In this document: positions 35 through 25,428 of the stretch, piece by piece | Layout of the letters: every line of letters starts with the position of its first letter | Numbering within the stretch: position 1 is the stretch's first letter | NCBI GenBank assembly: GCA_021776435.1 | Contig: JAJFFW010000114.1 | Location: 1 to 39,238, forward strand | From: Parvularculaceae bacterium | Lineage (GTDB): Bacteria; Pseudomonadota; Alphaproteobacteria; Caulobacterales; Parvularculaceae | DNA: 39,238 nt | Reading direction: 5' to 3' | Notes under the pieces: generated by a model | Told to the model about the DNA's origin: nothing | What the model saw: only the letters and a program-made list of their open reading frames with translations | Database searches by the model: none | Program-made: the position numbers and the translations under genes

Positions 35-829
35 ATGGATGAAGCGCAAAGAGAACGCTATGCCCGCCATATCCTCTTGAGGGAAGTTGGCGGCCAGGGC
101 CAGCAGAAACTGCTCGCGAGCCGCGTGCTGGTTGTCGGCGCCGGCGGGCTCGGCGCGCCGCTGATCATCTATCTCGCCGCCGCCGGGGTCGGAACCATCG
201 GCGTCGCCGACGACGACGAAGTGGCGCTTTCGAACCTGCAACGTCAGATTATTCACCGCACGGAGGATATCGGCCGCGCCAAGACGGCGAGCGCCAAGGA
301 CGCCGCTGCGCGCCTCAACCCGGATGTCGAGATCGTCGAGCACAGGCTGAGGATCGATGCGTCAAACGCCGCCGCGATCATCGCCGGATATGACCTCGTC
401 GTCGAAGGGGTCGACAATTTCGAAACGCGCTTTGTGCTGAACCGCACCTGTATGCAGGCGGGCAAACCATTTGTGTCCGCCGCCATCGGACGATTTGAAG
501 GCCAGCTCGCGACCTTTAAACCCTATGAGCGGCCCGGCGTTCTGCCCTGCTATCGTTGCTTCGTACGCGAGGCGCCGCCGCGCGATACGCAAGTCAATTG
601 CGCCGAGGAAGGCGTCCTTGGCGCTGTCTCAGGGGTCATGGGGACGCTTGCGGCAATGGAAGTGCTGAAGGAAATTCTCTCGCTCGGCGACAGTCTCGCC
701 GGACATATTCTTCTTTATGACGGGTTACGCACAGCCCTTCGCAGTGTGAAACTGCCGGCCGATCCGCAATGCCCGGATTGCTCTGTGATTTATGCTACGG
801 ACAAGAACCCTCATGCAGATGCTTCGTAA
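35..829 (+). CDS. moeB: ThiF/MoeB-type adenylyltransferase
   Basis: This is an E1-like enzyme of the ThiF/MoeB/HesA family, 264 aa. It probably adenylates the C-terminal glycine of the small subunit of molybdopterin synthase (MoaD) in molybdenum cofactor synthesis. The nucleotide-binding loop GAGGLG is at residues 35-40, followed by the family's NLQRQ segment at 67-71. Two zinc-type cysteine pairs are visible, CYRC at 172-175 and CPDC at 246-249, and Cys189 sits in the loop that carries the family's conserved cysteine. There is no C-terminal rhodanese domain, so it resembles bacterial MoeB rather than MoeB-rhodanese fusions. No moa genes are adjacent, so ThiF (thiamine) remains an alternative. 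Its 3' end overlaps the next gene. The start ATG has no strong Shine-Dalgarno. Confidence 0.88.
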   Translation: MDEAQRERYARHILLREVGGQGQQKLLASRVLVVGAGGLGAPLIIYLAAAGVGTIGVADDDEVALSNLQRQIIHRTEDIGRAKTASAKDAAARLNPDVEIVEHRLRIDASNAAAIIAGYDLVVEGVDNFETRFVLNRTCMQAGKPFVSAAIGRFEGQLATFKPYERPGVLPCYRCFVREAPPRDTQVNCAEEGVLGAVSGVMGTLAAMEVLKEILSLGDSLAGHILLYDGLRTALRSVKLPADPQCPDCSVIYATDKNPHADAS

Positions 830-1436
830 CAGTCTCGTTGTCGTTATTATGTTAGCCGCCCTTTCGCTGGCCGCCTGCGCCTCTTTGATTGCACCGAGCG
901 TAAAAACTGGTCAAGCCGCACTGCGCGCTGGTGACTACGTTCTCGATCATGATCACGCCGCGCTGGTTTTCAAAATCGACCATATGGGATTTTCGCAATT
1001 TATCGGCCGGTTTGAGCGCTTTGAGGCGGCGCTTGACTTCGACGACGCGGACGCTGCATCCGCACGCCTTGAAGCGGCAATCGACATAACATCGCTCGAT
1101 ATCGCCAATGACAAATTCGCGGCAACGCTGATGGGGCCCAACTGGTTTCATGTCGATGCTTATCCAAAGGCGGTCTTTCGCTCGACCAATATCGAAATCA
1201 CCGGCGAGAATACCGGCCGGATCCTGGGCGAGCTCACCCTGCACGGCGTCACAAGACCGGTCAGACTGGACGTCACCTTTAATGGCGGCGCTCGTGACAT
1301 CTTACGCGGGGGATACGTTATCGGGTTTTCCGCAGTCGGATCATTTGACAGAAAGGACTTTGGAATCGACAGATTTTCTGGAGTGGTTGGAGATATGGTC
1401 AAAATTGAGATCGAAGCCGAGTTCCTGCGCCGCTAG
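813..1436 (+). CDS. YceI-family lipoprotein
   Basis: A 207 aa exported protein of the YceI family, a lipocalin-like beta-barrel that in known members binds isoprenoid-type lipids. An N-terminal hydrophobic stretch ends in the lipobox LAAC, so it is predicted to be a lipoprotein. The rest matches YceI: the segment around AALVFKIDHMGFS, the variant D-x-x-S-L-D repeat, and a C-terminal LTLHGVTRPV segment. The frame is open further upstream (792), but the ATG at 813 (or 819) puts the charged N-region directly before the hydrophobic core and limits the overlap with moeB to about 17 bp, so I chose 813. It is probably cotranscribed with moeB. The ligand is unknown. Confidence 0.87.
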   Translation: MQMLRNSLVVVIMLAALSLAACASLIAPSVKTGQAALRAGDYVLDHDHAALVFKIDHMGFSQFIGRFERFEAALDFDDADAASARLEAAIDITSLDIANDKFAATLMGPNWFHVDAYPKAVFRSTNIEITGENTGRILGELTLHGVTRPVRLDVTFNGGARDILRGGYVIGFSAVGSFDRKDFGIDRFSGVVGDMVKIEIEAEFLRR

Positions 1437-1441
1437 CTCAA

Positions 1442-1900
1442 TTAATCCAAGATCATCACAACGACGCTGCCATGGTCAACCGTGATCTTCACATCATCAA
1501 ATTTTGGACGCTGCAAGCGAGGCCGGAAACCGTTCGAAAATGCGACCGGCTCAGTAGGGCGTCCAAGTGCGCTACGGTTAAGCTTGCCGTCCTGATTCAC
1601 ATCTAAATAAACGATAAACGCATACGCGCCCGGCTCTAACGCACGCAATGGCAGAACCGCGACGCCGGCTTCGTCAAACCGCGACCAGTATCTCGCCGCC
1701 GCCCGTTCGAGAAAGCCGTCTTCCCGGTCATAAACAACGAGCCGCACCAAGCCGCCGGGCACGTCAAATTCCGACTGCACGGCCAGCACAACACTTTCAG
1801 GGTCGGCATATTTTGAGAAAACTTCAGGTAAGGCAGCGTTATCGGCGCTTACAGCCCCCGCGCCGAGCAGAAACAAAATGAATGCGAGCCCAAAACGCAC
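1442..1900 (-). CDS. DUF2141 exported protein
   Basis: A 152 aa secreted protein with a signal peptide (residues 1-19, cleavage after AVSA). It matches the DUF2141 family: a beta-sandwich-like core with VRLVVYDREDGFL, then AYAFIVYLDVNQDGKLN and EPVAFSNGFRP. The D-x-N-x-D-G-K-L segment resembles a calcium-binding loop, but no calcium role is established for the family as far as I know. It lies tail to tail with the YceI gene, only 5 bp apart, so the two transcripts converge without room for a separate terminator. Function unknown. Confidence 0.82.
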   Translation of the reverse strand: MRFGLAFILFLLGAGAVSADNAALPEVFSKYADPESVVLAVQSEFDVPGGLVRLVVYDREDGFLERAAARYWSRFDEAGVAVLPLRALEPGAYAFIVYLDVNQDGKLNRSALGRPTEPVAFSNGFRPRLQRPKFDDVKITVDHGSVVVMILD

Positions 1901-2021
1901 GGCCCGGTTCCCCTTACAAAAGACAGCAACAACAATGATTTACGGTCATGGTTCTAACATCATGATGGTTAAAAACGATTCAACTTAAATGTTACTGTGT
2001 GACAATATTCGTGACGCCCTG

Positions 2022-2639
2022 TCACACAGATGCAACGCCGCTCGTCATGTAACCCGCGAATTTAGGAGCCCCACGGGCATAATGAGCTTGTACTCGATCA
2101 ATCTCGAAACCGGCTTCACGAATGAGAGAGGCGGGATCGCGATTTAAATGGCAGCCTCCTGCGAGCTTGCCCCAGATTCCATTGAGCCGGTTTTGCCAGC
2201 GCTCAACGTCAGGGTCTGGGGCGCGACCGTGCTCGAGAAAAATCAGCCGTCCGCCAGGCTTCAATACGCGGCGCATGCCGATAAGAGCCGTTTTTACGTC
2301 TGGGATCGTACACAATGCGTATGTGACGAGAACCGTGTCTACTGACCTTGCCTCCAGTGGAATTTCTTCTCCGGGCAAATCGAGATACTCGACCGGGAAC
2401 GGCAACCTCTTCATCCGCGGCTCCGCACGTTTGCGCATTGCGGCCGAAGGCTCCAGAGCAAAGAGGTGTTCGATTTTCTCAACATCGTAAAAGGGCGCAT
2501 TGCGGCCGGACCCGAACCCGACCTCCAGGACGCGACCAGAGGCGACCGGAACTATCTTCGCACGCTCACGCCGTATCACCCTTTGACCGCAGGCAAAATC
2601 AACAAGGGCCGGCTCAACATGGTTCGCGTAAATACCCAT
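2022..2639 (-). CDS. class I SAM-dependent methyltransferase
   Basis: A 205 aa soluble methyltransferase. Motif I is VLEVGFGSGRN at residues 37-47, followed by an acidic residue after strand 2 (FALEPS) and the motif III-type segment VLKPGGRLIFLEHGRA in the second half. The overall look (FDxxA-like N-terminus, LEHGR) is close to the METTL7/UbiE-like group that includes phospholipid and small-molecule methyltransferases. The substrate cannot be read from sequence. It is monocistronic by position: DUF2141 is downstream on the same strand, separated by 121 bp, and the next gene upstream is 47 bp away on the same strand. Confidence 0.85.
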   Translation of the reverse strand: MGIYANHVEPALVDFACGQRVIRRERAKIVPVASGRVLEVGFGSGRNAPFYDVEKIEHLFALEPSAAMRKRAEPRMKRLPFPVEYLDLPGEEIPLEARSVDTVLVTYALCTIPDVKTALIGMRRVLKPGGRLIFLEHGRAPDPDVERWQNRLNGIWGKLAGGCHLNRDPASLIREAGFEIDRVQAHYARGAPKFAGYMTSGVASV

Positions 2640-2686
2640 TACAGTTTATTTCTTCATTGACTGGCGAGACCAACCTTATCTCGCAG

Positions 2687-3673
2687 TTACAAAATTCCTG
2701 AAATGACGCGGTCGGGCGGCTTATGGCCATCGGCGAACATCTTGATGTTGATGATCACACATTCGCCCATCTCAAGTCGACTTTCTACGGTTGCGGAAGC
2801 CATGTGCGGCAACAAAACCACATTTGGCGCCGCCATCAGTTTTGGGTTGGCGCTCGGCTCATTTTCGAAAACATCGAGACCAGCCCCCGCGAGGCGACCT
2901 GCCGCAATGAGGTCCGCAAGCGCATCTTCGTCAATAAGTTCACCGCGGGAAATATTCACGACATAAGCGTGCGGTTGAAGGAGCTCCAGTCTGCGACGTG
3001 ATAACAAATGATACGTTGCCGGGGTGTGCGGACAATTGACGGACACGATGTCAGTGTGCGCAAGCATCTGATCCAGGCTCTCCCAATAGGTCGCCTCAAG
3101 CTCTTCTTCCACATGCGGATTAATTGAGGCGCGGTTATGATAATGGATAGATAGCCCAAAAGCGCGAGCCCGGAGCGCCACCGCCTGCCCAACCCGCCCC
3201 AGCCCAATAATTCCGAGCTTTTTCCCGCGTACGCGACGACCAAGCATCCATGTCGGAGACCATCCCTGGAAGGCGCCCATTTCAAGCGCCCGCACCCCTT
3301 CGACGAGGCGGCGGGGCACGGCAAGAATAAGCGCCATCGCCATATCGGCGGCGTCCTCAGCGAGGACAGATGGCGTGTTGGTGACAATGATGTCTTTCGC
3401 CCTCGCTGCCGCCAGATCAATATGATCGACGCCAGCGCCGAAATTCGCCACCAGCTTCAACCGGTCACCTGCTTGGGCGAAAAATACGGCGTCCAACTGA
3501 TCGCCGAGCGTAGAAGCAAGAACATCCGCCTCACGGGCGCGCGCAATTAAAGCCCCCCGATCAAGAAGGACATCGTCAGGATTGAAGATGACATCGAACA
3601 AATCCGCCAATCGCGCTTCAACAGCGTCTGGCAACTTGCGCGTCACAGCAATCTTTAGGCGCTTTGCATTCAT
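2687..3673 (-). CDS. D-2-hydroxyacid dehydrogenase (glyoxylate/hydroxypyruvate reductase type)
   Basis: A 328 aa NAD(P)-dependent enzyme of the D-2-hydroxyacid dehydrogenase family. The Rossmann motif GLGRVG is at residues 157-162. The catalytic triad of the family is complete: Arg243 in NISRGELID, Glu272 in DVFENEP, and His290 in LLPHMASAT. The length suits glyoxylate/hydroxypyruvate reductases rather than long SerA enzymes, since no ACT domain is present. The frame extends to 3730, but the ATG at 3673 has a good GAAAGG ribosome binding site about 8 bases upstream and gives the canonical N-terminus, so 3673 is preferred. A CtrA-like box lies upstream, between this gene and the divergent SH3 gene. 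The exact substrate is inferred only at subfamily level. Confidence 0.9.
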   Translation of the reverse strand: MNAKRLKIAVTRKLPDAVEARLADLFDVIFNPDDVLLDRGALIARAREADVLASTLGDQLDAVFFAQAGDRLKLVANFGAGVDHIDLAAARAKDIIVTNTPSVLAEDAADMAMALILAVPRRLVEGVRALEMGAFQGWSPTWMLGRRVRGKKLGIIGLGRVGQAVALRARAFGLSIHYHNRASINPHVEEELEATYWESLDQMLAHTDIVSVNCPHTPATYHLLSRRRLELLQPHAYVVNISRGELIDEDALADLIAAGRLAGAGLDVFENEPSANPKLMAAPNVVLLPHMASATVESRLEMGECVIINIKMFADGHKPPDRVISGIL

Positions 3674-3722
3674 CAGAACCGACCTTTCGCTGACCTGAGA
3701 CCGGTTGGAATCGGAAGGGAAG

Positions 3723-3738
3723 TTAACCACACATTAAC
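3723..3738. promoter_or_regulatory. CtrA-type binding box
   Basis: The sequence TTAACCACACATTAAC is an exact match to the TTAA-N7-TTAA consensus bound by the cell-cycle regulator CtrA in alphaproteobacteria, including the trailing C. It lies in the 126 bp divergent region between the hydroxyacid dehydrogenase (start 3673) and the SH3-domain gene (start 3800). The motif match is direct; binding is inferred. Confidence 0.5.
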
Positions 3739-3799
3739 GCCTTATCGCCTTAATAGGGATTTGTTAATCTTCATTGGCCCTTAACTTCGAGTTTGAGAC

Positions 3800-4372
3800 A
3801 TGCGGTGCGGTCTCGTCCCACTTACTTGCGCTATGATCGCGATTATGACAGCGCCCGCTTTGCCTGCGCAATCTGGCGACGGGCAACAGCAATTCATGAC
3901 GGTAAAACCAGAAGAAAGGCTTGTAAGGACGGACACGCCATCCGGCTTCCCAGTGCCGCGCTTTGTCTCCCTGAAAGAGAAGAAAACATACTGTCGACGT
4001 GGTCCGGCGTTCGAACAGCCAATCCGTTTCACCTATCTGCGAAAAGCGCTGCCTCTGCTGGTTATTGCCGAAACAAGAGATCATTGGCGCAAAATCCGCG
4101 ATTCTGCAGGTGAGGAATGCTGGGTTCATAAGACCAAGCTCTCAGGCGAACGAACAGTTCTGATTTCCGAAGAAGGGCTGATACTGCGGGCTAAACCGTC
4201 TGAAGACGCTACGGCGCGTGCGCGCCTGGCATCTGGCGTCATTGCGCAACTAGAGGCTGTATCTGGAAACTGGCGGCGAATAGACGCAGGTGGCGGAATT
4301 CGCGGCTGGGCGAACGTCCAGGGGCTGTGGGGAACCGAGTTGTTCGCCACTGAAACAGCACCACGCGATTGA
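3800..4372 (+). CDS. exported SH3-domain protein
   Basis: A 190 aa protein with a signal peptide (hydrophobic core about residues 5-22, cleavage near ALPA). Two bacterial SH3-like repeats follow. The first covers about 40-110, with the pattern CRRGPAFEQPIRFTYLRKALPLLVI, W-R-K-I, and CWVHKTKLSG. The second covers about 115-180, with LILRAKPSEDATARARL, NWRRIDAGG and RGWANVQGLWG. Such proteins are usually periplasmic and often bind peptidoglycan, but the ligand here is unknown. It is divergent from the hydroxyacid dehydrogenase, with a CtrA-like box between them, which would fit envelope or cell-cycle regulation. No catalytic domain is present. Confidence 0.82.
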   Translation: MRCGLVPLTCAMIAIMTAPALPAQSGDGQQQFMTVKPEERLVRTDTPSGFPVPRFVSLKEKKTYCRRGPAFEQPIRFTYLRKALPLLVIAETRDHWRKIRDSAGEECWVHKTKLSGERTVLISEEGLILRAKPSEDATARARLASGVIAQLEAVSGNWRRIDAGGGIRGWANVQGLWGTELFATETAPRD

Positions 4373-4460
4373 CCCTGCGCGCAGGCCCGATTAACCAATC
4401 AAAAGGTCACAATTCAGCCATACAGCGTCTCATAATCATTTAAAGGCCACAGAACCGCTA

Positions 4461-4985
4461 ATGACACAAAAACCAACCTTCACCCGCGAAGAACTCTTGC
4501 AATGCGGTTATCATGGTCTTCGCGGCAACGGCTCCGCACAACTGCCTGTGCCTCCCATGTTGATGTTTGACCGCGTCACTCATATCTCAAGCGAAGGCGG
4601 TTCATTTGATAAGGGTAAAATCGTCGCCGAACTCGATATCCATCCAGATATCTGGTTCTTTGAGTGCCATTTTCCGGGAGACCCGGTGATGCCAGGCTGC
4701 CTCGGCCTCGACGCGCTTTGGCAACTGGTCGGATTTTACCTCACCTGGTTGGGTTTGCCGGGCAAGGGGCGCGCGCTCGGTGCGAAAGAGATAAAATTCT
4801 CCGGCATGGTGGTGCCCACCGCCAAGCTTGTACGGTATGAAATTGACATCCGGCGCGTCATGAAAGGGAAGCTAATTCTTGGAATTGCCAATGGCGCGAT
4901 GTTTGTTGACGAACGCAAAATATACGAAGCTAACGAACTTCGCGTAGGTCTATTTTCCGAAGCGCAGTTGAAGGTGGGCATCTGA
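4461..4985 (+). CDS. fabA: 3-hydroxydecanoyl-[ACP] dehydratase/isomerase
   Basis: A 174 aa FabA, the bifunctional dehydratase/isomerase that introduces the cis double bond at C10 in bacterial unsaturated fatty acid synthesis. The active-site region [23 protein letters not shown] is intact, with His70 and Asp84 at the same numbers as in the E. coli enzyme, and the length is close to the usual 172 aa. It is followed 56 bp later by fabB on the same strand, as in other bacteria that use the FabA-FabB route. No irr or fur-like gene precedes it here, unlike the rhizobial arrangement that I recall. Confidence is high. Confidence 0.97.
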
Positions 4986-5041
4986 GTGCACAAATCAGAA
5001 CTGCTGTCGGGCGACGGCGGTAAAATAGAATGGATAGATGA

Positions 5042-6262
5042 ATGCGGCGAGTAGTGATTACGGGTCTTGGGATCGTATCTTCAATTGGAGAAAACACTCA
5101 GGAAGTCACCGATAGCCTGCGCGAGGGCCGGTCTGGCATCTCCCGCGCGGAAGAATTTGTTGAACACGGCTTCCGCAGTCAGGTTTTTGGTAGGCCATCC
5201 GTTGATGTTGAGCAGGTTCTGGACAGGCGCACGCGGCGGTTTATGGGCGAGGGCTCCGCGTGGAATTATATCGCAATGCAGGAAGCGATTGCTGATTCGG
5301 GCCTTGTTGAAGACGAAATCAGTCATCCGAGGACCGGCATCATTATGGGTTCCGGCGGTCCATCGACGCGCGCCATCGTAGAGGCGGCGGACAAAACACG
5401 AGCAAGCGGCAGCACAAAAAAGATCGGCCCCACCGCAGTCCCCAAAGCCATGTCATCGACAAATTCGGCGACATTGGCTGTGCCGTTTAAAATACTCGGT
5501 ATTAATTATTCAATTTCTTCAGCTTGCTCCACATCCCTGCATTGCATCGGCGCTGCTTGCGAACAGATTCAATGGGGCAAGCAGGATGTCATGTTCGCTG
5601 GGGGCGGAGAAGAACTCGACTGGACTCTTTCAAACCTCTTCGACGCGATGGGCGCCATGTCGAGCAACTTTAACGACACCCCATCAGTCGCGAGCAGAGC
5701 CTACGACAAAAACCGCGACGGCTTCGTGATCGCCGGTGGAGCGGGCGTCGTTGTTCTCGAAGAGTATGAGCGCGCCAAGGCTCGTGGTGCGCAAATCTAT
5801 GGTGAAATCGTTGGTTATTTCGCCAATTCGGACGGTTATGACATGGTGCAGCTCTCTGGCGAAGGCGCTGTGCGCTGCATGCGAGAAGCAATTGAAACCG
5901 TTCGTCAGCCTATTGATTATATCAATCCGCATGGCACTTCAACGCCGATTGGCGACCAGAAAGAAACGGACGCTATACGAGAAGTCTTTGGTTCCGAGAT
6001 TCCACCCTTTTCATCGACGAAATCACTGACAGGCCACTCGCTGGGCGCGGTCGGCGCCCAAGAACTGATCTATTGCCTATTGATGATGAAACACCGCTTC
6101 CTTGCCGCATCTGCACATATCGAGGAGATCGATCCGGCATTCGCTGATTTACCCATCATCCGTGAACGCATTGACAATGCAAAAATCGACTGCTTCCTCA
6201 CAAACAGCTTTGGCTTTGGCGGCACCAACGGCTCTCTCGTCGTTGCACGGCAAGAAGAGTAA
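5042..6262 (+). CDS. fabB: 3-oxoacyl-[ACP] synthase I
   Basis: A 406 aa beta-ketoacyl-ACP synthase I, partner of FabA in elongating cis-unsaturated acyl chains. The catalytic Cys162 is in [10 protein letters not shown], His297 in NPHGTSTP, Lys327 in STKSLTGH and His332 in [11 protein letters not shown]. The length equals that of E. coli FabB. The pairing with fabA upstream separates it from FabF. About 480 bp, containing a small membrane ORF, separate it from fabI. Start ATG at 5042 gives the standard [10 protein letters not shown]-terminus. Confidence 0.97.
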
Positions 6263-19415: not shown

Positions 19416-19685
19416 CTAGCGGCGCAGGCCGAGTTCCGCGATCAGCTTTTTGTAACGAAGTTCGTCATGGCGCTTCACGTAATCGAGAAGGCGGCGACGC
19501 AAAGAGACCATTTTCAACAGCCCGCGGCGCGAGTGATTGTCTTTCTTGTGGTCCTTGAAGTGCTCGGTGAGGTTGGTGATGCGCTCCGACAGGATCGCAA
19601 TCTGAACGTCCGGTGAGCCCGTATCGCCTTCTTTTTGCGCAAATTTCTTGATGAGTTCGGCCTTACGGCCAACCGTAATCGACAT
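19416..19685 (-). CDS. rpsO: 30S ribosomal protein S15
   Basis: An 89 aa S15, exactly the normal length. It carries the invariant segments [33 protein letters not shown] and [16 protein letters not shown]. The frame is open far upstream to 19934, but that extension is proline-rich and non-homologous. The ATG at 19685 has GGAG close upstream and gives the canonical start [13 protein letters not shown] promoter and a stem-loop lie in its leader (separate entries), consistent with autogenous control by S15, which is known for several S15 leaders. Confidence 0.98.
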
Positions 19686-19698
19686 AATACTTCTCCGC

Positions 19699-19733
19699 GG
19701 CGTCCCTGAATATGGCGGCCCCGCCGGGACGCC
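19699..19733 (-). promoter_or_regulatory. rpsO leader stem-loop, candidate S15 autoregulatory element
   Basis: GGCGTCCC (19699-19706) and GGGACGCC (19726-19733) pair perfectly, enclosing a second GC hairpin (GGCGG-CC-CCGCC, 19714-19725). The structure ends two bases from the GGAG ribosome binding site of rpsO, the place where S15-binding leader structures act in other bacteria. The pairing is direct; S15 binding is inferred. Confidence 0.5.
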
Positions 19734-19761
19734 GTCCAGCAGGGTCGAAGAATTTGTGGGG

Positions 19762-19790
19762 CTTATGGGGGAAAAGGGGAAAGAAGGCAA
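19762..19790 (-). promoter_or_regulatory. rpsO promoter
   Basis: Read on the minus strand, TTGCCT (19785-19790) and CATAAG (19762-19767) are 17 bp apart. This predicts a start near 19755 and a leader of about 70 bases containing the stem-loop ahead of rpsO. It would free rpsO from read-through of the mer operon just upstream. Confidence 0.45.
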
Positions 19791-19893: not shown

Positions 19894-21321
19894 TTATCCC
19901 GCGCAGCACGAAAGTTTGGAAACGTCCTTTCCAAAACCCTGGGCCGCCAATTTCAAGCCTTCAACGGTCGTTAGATAGGGAAATATCGTCTCGCCCAGCT
20001 CCTTGGCGGTCATTCCAAATTTGATGGCGAGAGCGGCGGTCTGAATGCTGTCCGCGCCTTCCGGCGCCAGAATATGCGCGCCCAATAGCCGGTCGCTCGC
20101 TTCATCGGCCACAAGTTTTATCAACCCGCGCGTATCGCGGGCGGCGAGCGCGCGGGGAACATGCTCCAGTCCCAGGAACGATGTCTTGACCTCATAACCG
20201 GCGGCTGCCGCCGCCGCCTCCGTCAACCCAACAGAGGCGACCTGTGGATCGGTGAAAACCACGGATGGCATTGCGCTGTTGTCATAGGAATGGTTGTTGC
20301 TGTTAAGAGCGTTTTTCGCTGCGAGTTTCGCTCCGTAAGCGGCCATATAAACAAACATATCCGAACCCGTCACATCGCCGGCGGCGTAGATGCTCGCGTT
20401 TGTGGACTGCATATGCTGATTGACTTTGACGCCGCCGTTTCTCAACATCTCAACGCCCAGATCCTCCAGACCCAGTTTTGCGGTGTTCGGTTTGCGGCCG
20501 GTTGCAACGAGAAGCTTTTCAGCCTCTATGTTTTGCTCGCCATCCTTGCTCTTGCAATAAAGTTTAACGCGGGCGCCCGACTGCTCGATCTTTTGATATC
20601 CGACCCCGGCGCAGACCGTAATGCCTTCGCCCTCAAGGGCGCTTTGCAGGGCCTTACTGATCTCCGGCTCCATATCCGGCAACAGTCGGCTCCGGCAACA
20701 AATCGTCACCTTCACGCCGGCGCGCGCGAACATCTGGCCAAGTTCGCACCCGATCACGCCGCCGCCAATAACCAGCAGTGATTGGGGTGCGGCGTCGAGA
20801 TCAAGCGCCTCGGTGCTGTTTAAATGGGAAACGTTTTCAATACCCGGTATTGGCGGGACAGATGACGACGAACCGGTCGCGATGATCGTTTTACCGGCCT
20901 TGATGTCAGCCCCTCCGACGATAACAACGCCGCCGTCCTTAAGGCGGGCCTTGCCTTCCAGATAGGCGACGTTGTTATATTCAGGCAGCAGATCAATATA
21001 TTTCTTTTGCCGAAGCGTGGAAACAAGGTCATCTTTATCAGCGATCACTTTGCTCCAATCCGTGATATGCGCTTCGCCGACAACGCCTTGAAAACGCTTA
21101 GCAGCACGCGCCCCATGCAGCGCTTCAGCCATACGGATCATGGTTTTCGACGGCACGCAGCCGACATTGACGCATGTGCCGCCAATCGTCCCATGACTAA
21201 TTAGAGCAACCTGCGCGCCCTGTTCCGCCGCCGTGATGGCGGCGGAAAACCCGGCGGAGCCGGCGCCGATCACAGCCAGATCGTAAGCGCCTGATTTGTT
21301 GGGCGGACAGCAGTCAGACAT
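19894..21321 (-). CDS. merA: mercuric reductase
   Basis: A 475 aa MerA, the cytosolic FAD-dependent enzyme that reduces Hg(II) to volatile Hg(0) with NADPH. The FAD motif GAGSAG is near residue 19. The redox pair is Cys50/Cys55 in [13 protein letters not shown], the second dinucleotide motif is [12 protein letters not shown], and the C-terminal vicinal pair Cys472-Cys473 (LSCCAG) is the metal-binding pair that separates MerA from lipoamide or glutathione reductases. The N-terminal HMA metal-binding domain found in many MerAs is absent; only Cys4-Cys5 remain there. It is the last gene of merT-merP-merA. A 156 bp gap with a small hairpin (CAGCC/GGCTG) separates it from merP. Confidence 0.95.
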
Positions 21322-21477: not shown

Positions 21478-21816
21478 TTAGGCGTCGGTCACGCTTGCCG
21501 GGTACCCGGCATTCGTCGACGCTTCAGTGATTTGGTCAACCGTCGCTGTTGACGGGTCATAAACGACCGTCGCCGTTTTGGCGTCGAAATCGACATCAAC
21601 CGAGCGGACGCCTTCTACTTTTTCCATCGCTTTTTTCACCGTAATAGGGCACATTGCGCATGTCATATTGGCGATGGCGAATGTTTGTGTGCGTTCTTTG
21701 ACGCTCTCTTCCGTTGCAGAGGCCGTCGCATTGCTCGAAGAAGCCATGCTGGCTACCGCGACGCCAGCAATCGCCAGCGCGGCGACGGTGGTAAACATAA
21801 TCAGTGGTCGTTTCAT
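21478..21816 (-). CDS. merP: MerP-type periplasmic mercury-binding protein
   Basis: A 112 aa exported protein with a signal peptide (1-22) and one heavy-metal-associated domain. The metal site is MTCAMCPITVKKAM with Cys53 and Cys56, the MerP form of the HMA motif, followed by VEGVRSVDVDFDAKTATVVYD. It would pass Hg(II) from the periplasm to MerT. A 20-residue Ser/Ala/Thr-rich linker precedes the domain, making it longer than the usual 91 aa. It is 15 bp downstream of merT. Confidence 0.93.
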   Translation of the reverse strand: MKRPLIMFTTVAALAIAGVAVASMASSSNATASATEESVKERTQTFAIANMTCAMCPITVKKAMEKVEGVRSVDVDFDAKTATVVYDPSTATVDQITEASTNAGYPASVTDA

Positions 21817-21831
21817 TTTACGTCTCCATTC

Positions 21832-22233
21832 CTAATAAAACCAGGGCGCCCAAAAATCGATTGTTGCGGCGAGTGCAACGAGCGCTGTCGCGCCCCATAA
21901 TACGACTTGGGTGATCAAGCTTGATTGCGGGCGCGCGCAATAAGACCCCTCTTCACAGGCAGGTTTTTTTCGAAAGTAGACCTGCCAAAAGCCAAGCCCG
22001 AGGAAGATCAGCGTTATGGTGATGAAATACGGTTTATAAGGCTCAAGCGCAGTTAAATTACCAATCCATGCGCCGGATACGCCCAAGCTGACCAGAATAA
22101 GCGGGCCTATGCAGCAGCTCGACGCGAGGACCGCGCCGACGACGCCGCCTGTCGCCAGCCATTTTTTTCCTTGCGGGGCAGGCGCTTGTTCATCCATTCG
22201 CATTCTTTGGTTTCCGCCTTCGCTATCACTCAT
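21832..22233 (-). CDS. merT: mercuric transport protein MerT
   Basis: An inner-membrane mercury importer with three hydrophobic segments. The first carries the vicinal cysteines in VLASSCCIGPLILVSLGVSGAWIGNL, and a second pair CEEGSYC lies in the cytosolic loop. The frame is open to an ATG at 22266, but that codon lies inside the -10 element of the mer promoter and so cannot be used. Starts at 22233, 22203 or 22197 remain; none has a strong ribosome binding site. 22197 gives the length closest to classic MerT (116 aa), while 22233 gives 133 aa. It is first in merT-merP-merA and divergent from merR. Confidence 0.92.
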   Translation of the reverse strand: MSDSEGGNQRMRMDEQAPAPQGKKWLATGGVVGAVLASSCCIGPLILVSLGVSGAWIGNLTALEPYKPYFITITLIFLGLGFWQVYFRKKPACEEGSYCARPQSSLITQVVLWGATALVALAATIDFWAPWFY

Positions 22234-22264
22234 ACCGAATCTGTCTCGACGATCGCATTTCTCC

Positions 22265-22295
22265 ATGATAGGGTCTGTAGCAACTACAGGATCAA
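22265..22295 (-). promoter_or_regulatory. mer promoter with MerR operator
   Basis: On the minus strand TTGATC (22290-22295) and TATCAT (22265-22270) are separated by 19 bp, the over-long spacer typical of MerR-activated promoters. The spacer contains the dyad CTGTAG-TTG-CTACAG. It drives merT-merP-merA; divergent merR starts 10 bp beyond the -35. MerR would repress without Hg(II) and untwist the DNA to activate with it, as known for the Tn501/Tn21 system. Confidence 0.88.
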
Positions 22296-22304
22296 GGAGT
22301 TTTT

Positions 22305-22727
22305 TTGACTGTCACCTTCACGGTTTCGAGAGAGGTTATTCGGCGCGGCGAGCTTGCAAAGCGATCCGGGTGCAATATTGAAACGATCAGATATTACGAG
22401 AAAATCGGTCTTTTACCGCCACCGGCGCGAAATGAAGGCGGGCACCGTCTATACTCCGAAAAGGACCAGGTGCGTCTGAGATTCCTGATGCGCTGCCGAG
22501 AGCTGGGTTTTTCTATCGATGAATTGCGCAGCCTTCTGTCTCTGGTGGATAGCGGCGCATATTCCTGCGGTGAAATCCATGCGCTGACAATGGATCACCT
22601 AACAAGCATCCGCCAAAAAATTACCGATTTAAAAAAGCTTGAGCGGACGTTGAAGACAATCTCCGCCGATTGCGAAGACGGTACGACGCCGGAGTGTCCA
22701 ATTATCGACACTCTTTTGGAACCATGA
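22305..22727 (+). CDS. merR: MerR family mercury-responsive regulator
   Basis: A 140 aa MerR-type regulator. The winged helix has RRGELAKRSGCNIETIRYYEKIGLLPPP and HRLYSEKDQVRLRFLMRCRELGFSIDELRSLL. The metal-binding cysteines are all present: Cys88 (YSCGE), Cys123 and Cys131 (CEDGTTPEC). The last two are seven residues apart, one fewer than in Tn501 MerR. The start codon is TTG at 22305 with AAGGAG five bases before it; no ATG is available nearby. It is divergent from merT across a 19 bp-spacer promoter, the standard mer arrangement. Confidence 0.92.
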   Translation: MTVTFTVSREVIRRGELAKRSGCNIETIRYYEKIGLLPPPARNEGGHRLYSEKDQVRLRFLMRCRELGFSIDELRSLLSLVDSGAYSCGEIHALTMDHLTSIRQKITDLKKLERTLKTISADCEDGTTPECPIIDTLLEP

Positions 22728-22780: not shown

Positions 22781-22823
22781 CCTACAAATTAAACACTCTG
22801 GTAGGTTTCAGCTTTAGTCCGAC
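22781..22823. repeat. displaced copy of the truB 3' end (direct repeat, copy A)
   Basis: A 43 bp segment identical at 37 positions to 24498-24540. Read on the minus strand it encodes GLKLKPTRVFNL and a TAG stop, almost the same as the true end of TruB (GLKLKPVRVFNL). The stop codon of the LuxR-type gene falls inside it in another frame. It is best explained as an att-like footprint 1717 bp from the functional truB end. Confidence 0.8.
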
Positions 22824-23554
22824 TGATTGACCGAAGCATCGACAATATCGGCTGCGAAGAATTCATGCGTCTGCAGACCAGTGATGATCGCATGCAGCTT
22901 GTTTCTGACCCTCAACTTACGTTTTGCGTTCTCGATATGGGCGTGAACGGTATTCGGGCTGATACTAAACAGTCGCCCGGTGTCTTTTTCGGTGTATCCT
23001 TGGCCAGCGGCAATCAGGCATTCCCGTTCCCGACGCGTCAAGATGTTACCTTTCTTTTTGACCGTTGTTGCGGGCGATGCTTGATGCGGGTCCAGTTTCT
23101 CAAGGCAATAAGAATAAATGAGACTCAGTTCGACTGACGACAAAGCCCTCTTCACTCCGGTTACTGAAGTGGCAATCAAGGTTCCCTCAGCGCCTCGAAA
23201 CGGAAGAAAATATGCGAAATCAACACCTTCCGTTCGAAGCGCTTCAAAATAGGCGTTGACATCATAGTCATCCGATGTCGCGAATTCATAATCGAAGAGA
23301 TTGAAGGGTGCGTGTTGATGTCGCGCGATGATCGGCGCTGGATGTTTGTTTTTTTCCACAAGCCGGTCGCATAATACATTGATCGGGTGGGAAGGTCTCG
23401 GTTGACAATCGCCGTGCTTTTGCTGAGCGCCGTTTTCGTTTTCGAAAACGATGCAGCCGTGATCCAGTTTGCTCTTAGTGAAAATCCTTCCGATTTTCTG
23501 TGCAAACGTTTCCACTTCCAGAGAGGATGACCCCATTACGATATTCGTCCTCAT
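22814..23554 (-). CDS. LuxR-type transcriptional regulator
   Basis: A 246 aa regulator with a C-terminal LuxR/GerE helix-turn-helix (about 167-230): LTRRERECLIAAGQGYTEKDTGRLFSISPNTVHAHIENAKRKL. The N-terminal half may be an autoinducer-binding-like domain (segment YFEALRTEGVDFAYFLPFRGAEG), but the usual Trp/Tyr/Asp ligand residues are not clear, and no LuxI gene is seen. The last codons (QSD) and stop lie within the duplicated truB end, so the C-terminus was shaped by the insertion. The start at 23554 or the ATG at 23536 are both possible. It is divergent from the 131 aa gene across 357 bp. Confidence 0.8.
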   Translation of the reverse strand: MRTNIVMGSSSLEVETFAQKIGRIFTKSKLDHGCIVFENENGAQQKHGDCQPRPSHPINVLCDRLVEKNKHPAPIIARHQHAPFNLFDYEFATSDDYDVNAYFEALRTEGVDFAYFLPFRGAEGTLIATSVTGVKRALSSVELSLIYSYCLEKLDPHQASPATTVKKKGNILTRRERECLIAAGQGYTEKDTGRLFSISPNTVHAHIENAKRKLRVRNKLHAIITGLQTHEFFAADIVDASVNQSD

Positions 23555-23911
23555 TCAAGTGTTTGGCTGCTTCCAAGCCAATTAGTCACTCGTAGTTTTC
23601 ATTAATTCCCACACCGCGAATTCAACCTGGCACGCGCTGTTGATCGAGGTTTAGTGACAGTGTGAGACGATAGCTCTTCTTATTATAATTCAATCACACA
23701 AAATACCTTCGGTTCAACCTGGAGTTAGAGCTTTTTCCCAAAGAAAAATCACTAGCCGAATCTGGTTATTCTGCCATGAAAATCAATCAATCAATCATTT
23801 CCAATTAGTTGATAAAGGGGATTGGGCTCTCGTCAAAATTGAGCCCTACTGATCAATCAATAATTCGGAAGTCAAACTCACCAAAAAAGCAATCAATCCC
23901 TGGAGAGATCA
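23555..23911. promoter_or_regulatory. AT-rich divergent control region with ATCA repeats
   Basis: This 357 bp gap lies between the divergent LuxR-type and 131 aa genes. It holds AATC repeated four times at 23781-23796, further ATCAATCAA units at about 23851 and 23890, and a TATAAT at 23684-23689. The stem-loop GGGCTC (23824-23829) / GAGCCC (23841-23846) sits ahead of the plus-strand gene. I see no ORF of note. The repeats could be binding sites for the adjacent regulator. Confidence 0.45.
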
Positions 23912-24307
23912 ATGCAAACAAACAAAGAAAAATTGCTTCAAATTGATTTGGATCAAGATTACCATGAAAATCACAATTTCGTCAACAAGAATTTCACATC
24001 CAGCGAAACCGTTTCTGTCTCTGATTTGTGCACAGACGCCGGAGCCCTTCTTTCTTCAATGACAGATCCTGCATACGTTCCCCACGTCACTGATCTGGAC
24101 TGCACGCCCGATATGGATGAAATTTGGGGGGAAATAGAGAAATGTACGCGTACGCTCGCGCGGGCGCCTTCGGTTTCCTTCGCCGATATTGTTGGGAAAA
24201 TCCATATCTGGCGTCATGTCGCGCCGGACGAGGAAGGCGACGAATCCACGATCGACGAAATATTGCTTACGTCGATCATGCTCGATGTCGAGCGCCTGAT
24301 TGGCTAA
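23912..24307 (+). CDS. 131-residue acidic protein (hypothetical)
   Basis: A strongly acidic soluble protein without signal peptide or membrane segment. The first 45 residues are Asn/Asp/Glu-rich and low complexity (QIDLDQDYHENHNFVNKNF); the second half looks folded and helical (DEIWGEIEKCTRTLARAPSVSF, STIDEILLTSIMLDVERLIG). Three cysteines. The ribosome binding site GGAGAG lies six bases before the ATG, which makes it a credible gene. It is divergent from the LuxR-type regulator and is the only other cargo of the repeat-bounded segment, so it may be the regulator's target. No family recognised. Confidence 0.7.
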   Translation: MQTNKEKLLQIDLDQDYHENHNFVNKNFTSSETVSVSDLCTDAGALLSSMTDPAYVPHVTDLDCTPDMDEIWGEIEKCTRTLARAPSVSFADIVGKIHIWRHVAPDEEGDESTIDEILLTSIMLDVERLIG

Positions 24308-24497
24308 GGGCGAGTGCTTTAGGCGCCTGACCTGACATGATATGATATGAATACATATGCAGATGCTGAACGAATCCGTCACAACGCAAAAAACGGAAAT
24401 CATTGGGCCAGCCGCATCACCGTTGACCCGGGACAGTCCGCCATCTGGGAATTCAATTAGTCTCTTTTGTCAGATGCGCATACGCCCCTATGCTCCC

Positions 24498-24540
24498 CCT
24501 ACAAATTAAACACCCTGACCGGTTTCAACTTTAGTCCGTC
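24498..24540. repeat. functional truB 3' end (direct repeat, copy B)
   Basis: The last 14 codons of truB with its TAG stop, matched at 37 of 43 positions by the copy at 22781-22823. The identity ends at the same base on both sides, as expected of a recombination site. Confidence 0.8.
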
Positions 24541-25428
24541 TAGCTCGCAAATCGCTACTGGATCGCCGTGGAGCGATGCGAGAACCGCGTCAATGTTTCC
24601 GACTGCGCCGCCGCGCAGACCCTTCGCCGCCGCCGGTGAGATGATCGCCTCCTGGCCGCGCCGAAGCCTGGCCGCTTCCGGTCCTGAGATGCTTGTCTGA
24701 GGCATGTTCGCGAGCGCTGCATCGATCGAGAGAAGCACGCCGTCACGCGCCTCGGGCGTTTCCAGCGCTTCAAGACCGGCAATAGTGACGCCGTCCTCGG
24801 CGCAAAAGTGCCCGACGCGAAGCCGCCGCAACGCACAGACATGGCCTTCCGTGCCCAAGGCACGAGCCATGTCGCGCACCAGCGCCCGCACATAGGCGCC
24901 CTTGCCTGTCACCGCCTCGAACACCGCCGTGTCATCGTCAGGGCGTTCCACCAACTGCAGTTCCTTGATATGAATCAGCCGCGGCGGCAGGTCGACCGTC
25001 TCGCCGGCGCGGGCAATGTCATAGGCCCGCTCGCCGCCGATCTTGATGGCCGAAAACTGTGGTGGGATCTGTTCTATTTCGCCGGTGAAATGACCGAGCA
25101 CGGCTTCGATCGCTTCGCGCGAAGGGCGCTTGTCCGAGCGCGCAATCACTTCACCCTCGCTATCATCGGTTGTCGTCGCTTCGCCCCAATGCACGGTAAA
25201 ATGGTAAAGTTTCTCGGCATCCATCACGAAAGGGACAGTCTTTGTCGCCTCACCGAGGGCAATCGGCAGAACGCCTGTGGCCAATGGATCGAGCGTTCCC
25301 GCATGGCCGGCTTTTTGCGCCTGAAATAACCATTTCACTTTCGAAACAGCTTCCGTAGATCCAAAGTCATAAGCCTTATCGAGGATCAGCCAGCCCGAGA
25401 CGGGCCGCCCCTTTTTTTGTCTTCCCAT
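24499..25428 (-). CDS. truB: tRNA pseudouridine(55) synthase
   Basis: A 309 aa TruB, which makes pseudouridine 55 in the T-loop of tRNAs. The catalytic Asp47 is in GHAGTLDPLATGVLP, and the start GWLILDKAYDFGSTEAV is typical. The segment TGKGAYVRALVRDMARALGT and the C-terminal extension agree with the family. It lies 134 bp downstream of rbfA as in other bacteria, but rpsO, its usual next neighbour, is 4.8 kb away. The last 43 bp are duplicated at 22781. Confidence 0.96.
   Translation of the reverse strand: MGRQKKGRPVSGWLILDKAYDFGSTEAVSKVKWLFQAQKAGHAGTLDPLATGVLPIALGEATKTVPFVMDAEKLYHFTVHWGEATTTDDSEGEVIARSDKRPSREAIEAVLGHFTGEIEQIPPQFSAIKIGGERAYDIARAGETVDLPPRLIHIKELQLVERPDDDTAVFEAVTGKGAYVRALVRDMARALGTEGHVCALRRLRVGHFCAEDGVTIAGLEALETPEARDGVLLSIDAALANMPQTSISGPEAARLRRGQEAIISPAAAKGLRGGAVGNIDAVLASLHGDPVAICELDGLKLKPVRVFNL

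Follow-up and report, generated by a model that had tools for sequence, protein, structure and literature searches.

Genomic islands in the 3' ends of tRNA or housekeeping genes keep the gene end whole and carry a displaced copy of it at their far end, and with them a fixed attachment core and an integrase are expected, neither of which was found at the truB gene of the Parvularculaceae bacterium described here. In integrase-free hotspots variable cargo lies between fixed core genes, part of these hotspots being without mobility genes, and recombination in the flanks has been proposed in the consulted part of that work (PMC5635113). The interval between truB and rpsO is like these hotspots in its varied cargo between two fixed core genes; as far as that part of the source goes, it is unlike them in that they are defined within species and our comparison runs across the species of a family, in its displaced core-gene tails, and in that flank recombination is here putative. 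Homology-facilitated illegitimate recombination, in which one end of the DNA joins by homology and the other illegitimately, is known, according to the consulted parts of PMC3240628 and PMC2884548, from laboratory assays, whereas at truB it is suggested by scars, and its homologous end is putative. For Vibrio T6SS arrays the consulted part of PMC5361080 proposes that a new module comes in next to a conserved anchor and pushes the older 3' part further back; the shifted parts there are immunity genes thought to be selected, whereas the truB tail looks like a functionless scar.

In the openly licensed literature, searched mostly by title, we found no paper on a truB-rpsO hotspot or on truB as an integrase attB site; in PMC2447356 rpsO and truB are only two of several marker genes around the DR region of Mycobacterium. 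Integrase-free core-gene hotspots and homology-facilitated illegitimate recombination are already known, and what is special here is unusually clear scars. In such hotspots without mobile elements the entry of single genes is usually invisible; unequal truB tails, states with and without an insert, and joints at short homology record single events, and the homology-anchored model of gene gain becomes testable on sequences. Rather than a new mobile element, the case appears to be a good fossil record of everyday gene gain, and it warns that a short gene-end repeat beside cargo does not by itself prove a site-specific element.

The window, which is the whole analysed stretch of 39,238 nucleotides (contig JAJFFW010000114.1, assembly GCA_021776435.1), reads on the minus strand as truB, the 131-aa gene and the LuxR-type gene (divergent), a truB-tail relic, a mer operon, rpsO and an SDR gene, and contains no tRNA genes.

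Table 1. Features of the truB-rpsO region of the window, with the evidence for each.
Feature	Position	Strand	Evidence
truB (309 aa, intact), with the live repeat copy at its 3' end	24499..25428	-	Pfam TruB_N 2e-50, TruB_C_2 2.7e-10
Live truB 3' end, reference repeat copy	24498..24540	-	repeat finder and direct comparison
131-aa protein, function unassigned, divergent partner of the LuxR-type gene	23912..24307	+	no Pfam or NCBIfam match
LuxR-type regulator, its stop the TAA inside the relic	22814..23554	-	Pfam GerE 2.9e-12
truB-tail relic, 43 nt (truB nt 888-930)	22781..22823	-	repeat finder; profile score 38.3 (background max 4.9)
MerR-family regulator of the mer operon	22305..22727	+	Pfam MerR_1 6.3e-20
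merT	21832..22266	-	Pfam MerT 1.9e-33; NCBIfam model below cut-off
merP-like metal-binding protein	21478..21816	-	Pfam HMA 2.9e-16; NCBIfam MerP 2.7e-22, below cut-off
merA, mercury(II) reductase	19894..21321	-	NCBIfam TIGR02053 7.8e-168, 559 bits against a cut-off of 454
Native rpsO leader, bounding the variable interval on the right	19686..19770	-	conserved in 33 loci; covarying hairpin and long-range helix
rpsO (ribosomal protein S15), right-hand core gene	19416..19685	-	same-orientation downstream of truB in 33/45 family loci

The first-pass annotation had described a 43-bp repeat of the truB end, and it is borne out: the two copies are identical at 37 of 43 positions, far above both the next-best match to the 43-nt truB end within the window (23/43) and the chance level, which did not exceed 26/43 in 200 runs of a first-order Markov null of the truB-rpsO interval on one strand. 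By the repeat finder it extends to 51 nt at 82%, with a spacing of 1717. Read on the minus strand, the relic gives V-GLKLKPTRVFNL-stop and the live truB end D-GLKLKPVRVFNL-stop, in agreement with the view that it encodes the C-terminal codons of truB with their stop, and the TAA of the LuxR-type gene is, as had also been stated, the TAA of the relic (GGACTAAAG). A dispersed repeat unrelated to truB, which had been named as the alternative, finds no place in these data: the 19-nt repeat core, with up to 2 mismatches, occurs at two places only in the genome of the bacterium (2.96 Mb in 142 contigs, 98.6% complete), and a search for a third copy near rpsO found none. The truB gene itself is matched in 98 of the 100 genomes searched, this one included. 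Scattered gapped similarity to truB is also seen in the DNA just before the relic, and we do not count it as relic because homologues support LuxR coding there. A truB-like match inside merA (E 7e-4) and another, weak one in locus L155 (E 2.7e-4, with one query) were taken as chance.

The stretch from the relic to the live end of truB appears to be an insert. Its GC content is 0.470, against a mean of 0.541 (sd 0.023) over 376 windows of 1674 bp, the lowest of which (0.464, starting at 22401) overlaps it. Of the 62 family genomes, 7 have homologues of the LuxR-type gene at E 1e-10 and 14 have matches to the 131-aa protein (the best relative at 6.3e-14), which is also matched in 2 of 385 genomes of a class-wide sample; the genome of the bacterium is included in all three counts. 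The divergent pair of a LuxR-type and a 131-aa-like gene was seen in six more family genomes (G009:C65, G033:C3, G015:C19, G031:C127, G042:C24, G059:C250). There truB lies away from it, about 24 kb off on the same contig in G015, about 197 kb off on the same contig in G033 and on other contigs in G009, G042 and G059; in G031 truB was not found. Since the pair is present elsewhere in the family, it would be logical to regard it as a family gene module that was placed at truB in this genome. It was not seen beside truB in the 62 family genomes except in this one, so the alternative that relatives carry it at truB without any repeat found no example. We read the segment as inserted because of its low GC, of the pair occurring elsewhere in the family, and of two relatives, discussed below, of which one lacks an insert with a tail and the other has it. 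The earlier proposal of an integrated segment is therefore supported as to the insertion, and is not supported as to a site-specific element that uses the truB 3' end as its attachment site. Neither of the two segment proteins is a recombinase by Pfam, as had been noted before. In a C-terminal alignment the LuxR-type protein extends about 5-9 residues beyond the C-terminal ends of its homologues, its final residues and stop deriving from the joint and the relic. Among plasmids, 11 records match the LuxR-type gene and none covers 80% of it.

The space between the relic and rpsO is filled by a mer operon (merR-like, merT, merP-like and merA genes) absent from the first-pass annotation. Its regulator matches the NCBIfam models CadR-PbrR (6.1e-36) and MerR (7.7e-36), both under their cut-offs. 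The mer DNA is matched by 4011 plasmid records, 3988 of them at 60-80%, and these do not indicate its route of arrival. On the right the variable interval ends at the rpsO leader, whose conservation across the 33 family loci is strong. An S15 leader of alphaproteobacteria has already been described (consulted part of PMC4137082), and ours is probably the same element. In the 33 family loci 98.7% of 462 cells of the alignment are paired, changes on both sides are found in 3 of 14 pairs, and versions with the pairing slid reach at most 60%. Against Rfam there was no match at the gathering score and below it a chance match only. In the stretch 19677-19770 of the minus strand the hairpin loop GGCGTC is predicted to pair with GACGCC just 5' of GGAG.

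According to our comparison of 62 family genomes, which include named Parvularculaceae and Marinicaulis, the family has a hotspot of gene gain at the truB-rpsO junction. Forty-five loci were kept, after dropping those with the same last 300 nt of truB, with truB identity below 58% or with a truB match ending before residue 300; L152, L156 and L158-L162 are among the 45, have another gene order and stand outside the 33 readable loci. The gap between truB and rpsO (median 1208 bp, range 107-5183) exceeds 300 bp in 26 of these 33, the filled intervals holding 0.3-5.2 kb of changing cargo, and the other seven are near-empty junctions of 107-180 bp. The neighbouring rpsO-SDR gap is above 300 bp in none of the 33 and never above 264 bp, so that turnover is high between two fixed core genes and the next junction is stable, despite a gap of more than 300 bp between rbfA and truB in 9 of 27 family loci. 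These rbfA-truB gaps indicate that truB is variable on its other side too, though less often. In 57 more distant loci (L056-L112) both genes were read in 50, and the truB-rpsO gap is 22-33 bp in 45 of them; the remaining five gaps are 97, 100, 191, 320 and 2443 bp. L156 has the pnp-SDR-rpsO block turned around with respect to truB, so that pnp, SDR and rpsO come after truB but on the other strand.

The cargo falls into 58 protein clusters across the 45 loci, seven of these loci with other gene order, and includes an NHL-repeat lipoprotein-like protein, a PEP-CTERM protein, carbonic anhydrase, CAAX proteases, a TetR regulator, alpha-amylase, a hybrid histidine kinase, a Fic protein, sulfotransferases and a mechanosensitive channel. 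One member each of 46 of the 58 clusters, with ORFs of at least 100 aa, was scanned with Pfam, and among these 46 there is no integrase, resolvase or transposase; the scan leaves aside c1, c25 and c41-c50, of which c25 (a 108-aa ORF of L148) sits in a truB-rpsO interval, and among short ORFs it covers only one, of 61 aa. Tyrosine-recombinase genes are present in 61 of the 62 family genomes, and five phage-integrase-family genes in the genome of the bacterium itself, and among the places listed for the family, where many contigs are short, none shares a contig with truB at a distance of 150 kb or less. The larger island with an integrase at truB that had been proposed as a thing to look for was not found either. 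The pre-insertion state of this particular segment was not seen, since no same-genus genome appeared among the relatives searched, and for the same reason its own joint cannot be read.

Displaced truB tails were found in three relatives as well, L040 (Marinicaulis flavus), L043 and L045, and only one of the four tails belongs to the genus of our bacterium. A profile of 44 truB ends, 39 nt wide, was run over 104,156 interval bases of the 45 loci on both strands and scored 50.1 in L043, 38.3 in the window and 29.3 in L040, the background maximum being 4.9 over 816,292 positions in the flanks of the same loci. With so short a profile the three tails first looked alike, and longer alignments changed the reading: they start in truB at nt 888 in the window, at about 811-838 in L040 and at about 773-780 in L043, with lengths of 43 nt, about 85-120 and about 150-166, respectively, and about 13 nt in L045. 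Among the 26 filled intervals that could be followed as far as rpsO, 3 have a tail (the window, L040 and L045, the joint of the last being common to L048); L043 also carries one, in an interval not read through to rpsO. Most gains at truB-rpsO left no tail.

Two relatives, judged by their alignment, show the locus with and without such an insert and its tail: L044 has truB and then c7, L043 has truB, c3, a truB tail and then c7. The L043 tail matches the end of truB in L044, and the DNA behind it, once an additional 110 bp or so are passed, matches the DNA downstream of truB there: positions 814-886 of L043 correspond to -55 to 17 of L044 (85%) and 996-3187 to 10-2138 (84%). The truB-c3 junction of L043 corresponds to that of L055 (88% over 815 nt). 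Going by L043, L044 and L055 alone, either side of the L043 tail could be the newcomer. In L045 the sequence GTTTAATCTCTAA and the DNA following it match the L055 truB-c3 junction, about 13 nt from the stop. As both parents are represented, the joints of L045 and L043 can be read: in L045 GTTTAAT occurs both at the end of a 61-aa gene and in the truB tail, and in L043 an imperfect stretch of about 12 nt is common to the DNA upstream of c3 and to truB. Illegitimate joints at short homology are thus found in two relatives, although the L045 joint, taken in reverse, could be a deletion that yielded the truB-c3 junction of L055 and L043.

We propose, and consider it likely, that a gene gain anchored by homology in truB was closed by illegitimate joining, the old tail being left as a scar. 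A 1.67-kb segment with the LuxR-type and 131-aa genes would have been gained between truB and the mer operon, from incoming DNA in which the gene pair stood behind a truB end; this DNA would have anchored by homologous recombination within truB and been joined at its far end, illegitimately, to the resident chromosome in the last codons of truB. The incoming end would keep truB whole, the resident last 43 nt would be displaced as the relic, and the LuxR-type gene, its own stop lost, would now terminate on the relic stop, all of which would amount to homology-facilitated illegitimate recombination in a core-gene hotspot of the integrase-free kind. We infer the anchor in truB and the direction of displacement, the presence of the mer operon before the segment, from its position, and delivery as linear DNA, through a gene transfer agent or natural transformation. 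Short linear DNA would be a plausible carrier: of the 62 family genomes 58 have ComEC and 48 the gene-transfer-agent protein GTA_TIM, and this one has both, together with DprA.

It is the uneven tail lengths together with the short-homology joints that point to illegitimate joining, as a recombinase would leave one fixed edge, though decay of longer repeats or the action of several integrases could also make tails uneven. Sliding identities gave no clear donor tract in truB for the L043 group, represented by one genome per species, and the truB end of L043 is closest to that of L048, not of c3-carrying L055. The direction of displacement is ambiguous, given the two readings of the L045 joint and of the L043 tail. 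It also speaks against our proposal that most gains show no tail, and that an anchor on either side would predict copies of the rpsO leader as well: all four tails are truB-side, and a search for leader copies within an interval found none, the matches being the leader itself at the contig ends of L043 and L153.

An attachment site in truB was our own first hypothesis, dropped once the tails of L043, L040 and L045 proved to begin elsewhere. The 43 bp would then be the duplicated site of a small non-autonomous element, moved by a tyrosine recombinase acting in trans. Such a length is usual for an attachment core, the repeat lies at the stop side of a whole truB, the five phage-integrase-family genes could supply the enzyme, and the truB site has been used repeatedly in the family; yet the tail starts vary between genomes, joints of two relatives show short homology, the scanned cargo and the listed places within 150 kb on the truB contig hold no recombinase, and the LuxR stop falls inside the supposed site. 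Of the marks of a genomic island, the flanking direct repeat and the whole gene end are here, and neither an integrase in or beside the segment, among the cargo scanned and the places listed, nor a fixed start base was seen; we consider this account quite unlikely. Highly improbable in our view is that the 3' end of truB was duplicated locally in tandem and genes were captured later between the copies: direct repeats of any length would be expected from it, but the tails have no duplicated flanking gene next to them, the interposed DNA is here of low GC, and the two sides of the L043 tail match different relatives.

The same L043 flanks count against a double homologous recombination, at truB and at rpsO, that would have swapped whole intervals and brought the relic ready-made from a donor. 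It accords with the integrase-free hotspots in the consulted part of PMC5635113 and with the absence of tails from most filled intervals, but leaves the first formation of a tail unexplained, and we regard it as unlikely. Our homology-anchored proposal may be extended, as a doubtful idea, to truB as a standing integrase-free loading dock, where fragments from gene transfer agents or transformation, anchored in truB, would always add genes directly beside it, older cargo would move toward rpsO and the tails would keep a tally of past loads; if true, the cargo would have a polar order like that of an integron, with no integrase involved.

Some smaller observations touch the same region. Right after the truB tail of L043 a stretch of about 110 bp (L043:11811-11919), absent from L044 and with CTAGAGCA and TGCTCTAG ends seen by eye, is perhaps a small mobile repeat. 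The 61-aa protein (L048:8998-9183, starting MAHHKRKGPKSTRAGCLLCKPQ) has no Pfam or NCBIfam match; its gene directly follows truB in L010, L031 and L048, stands further along in others (L043, L044, L045) and looks broken in L044. In L043 and L055 c3 ends 11 nt inside truB, as the LuxR-type gene here ends in the relic. The truB tail TGTTTAAT offers stops on both strands and in more than a single frame, and cuts there may for this reason be tolerable.
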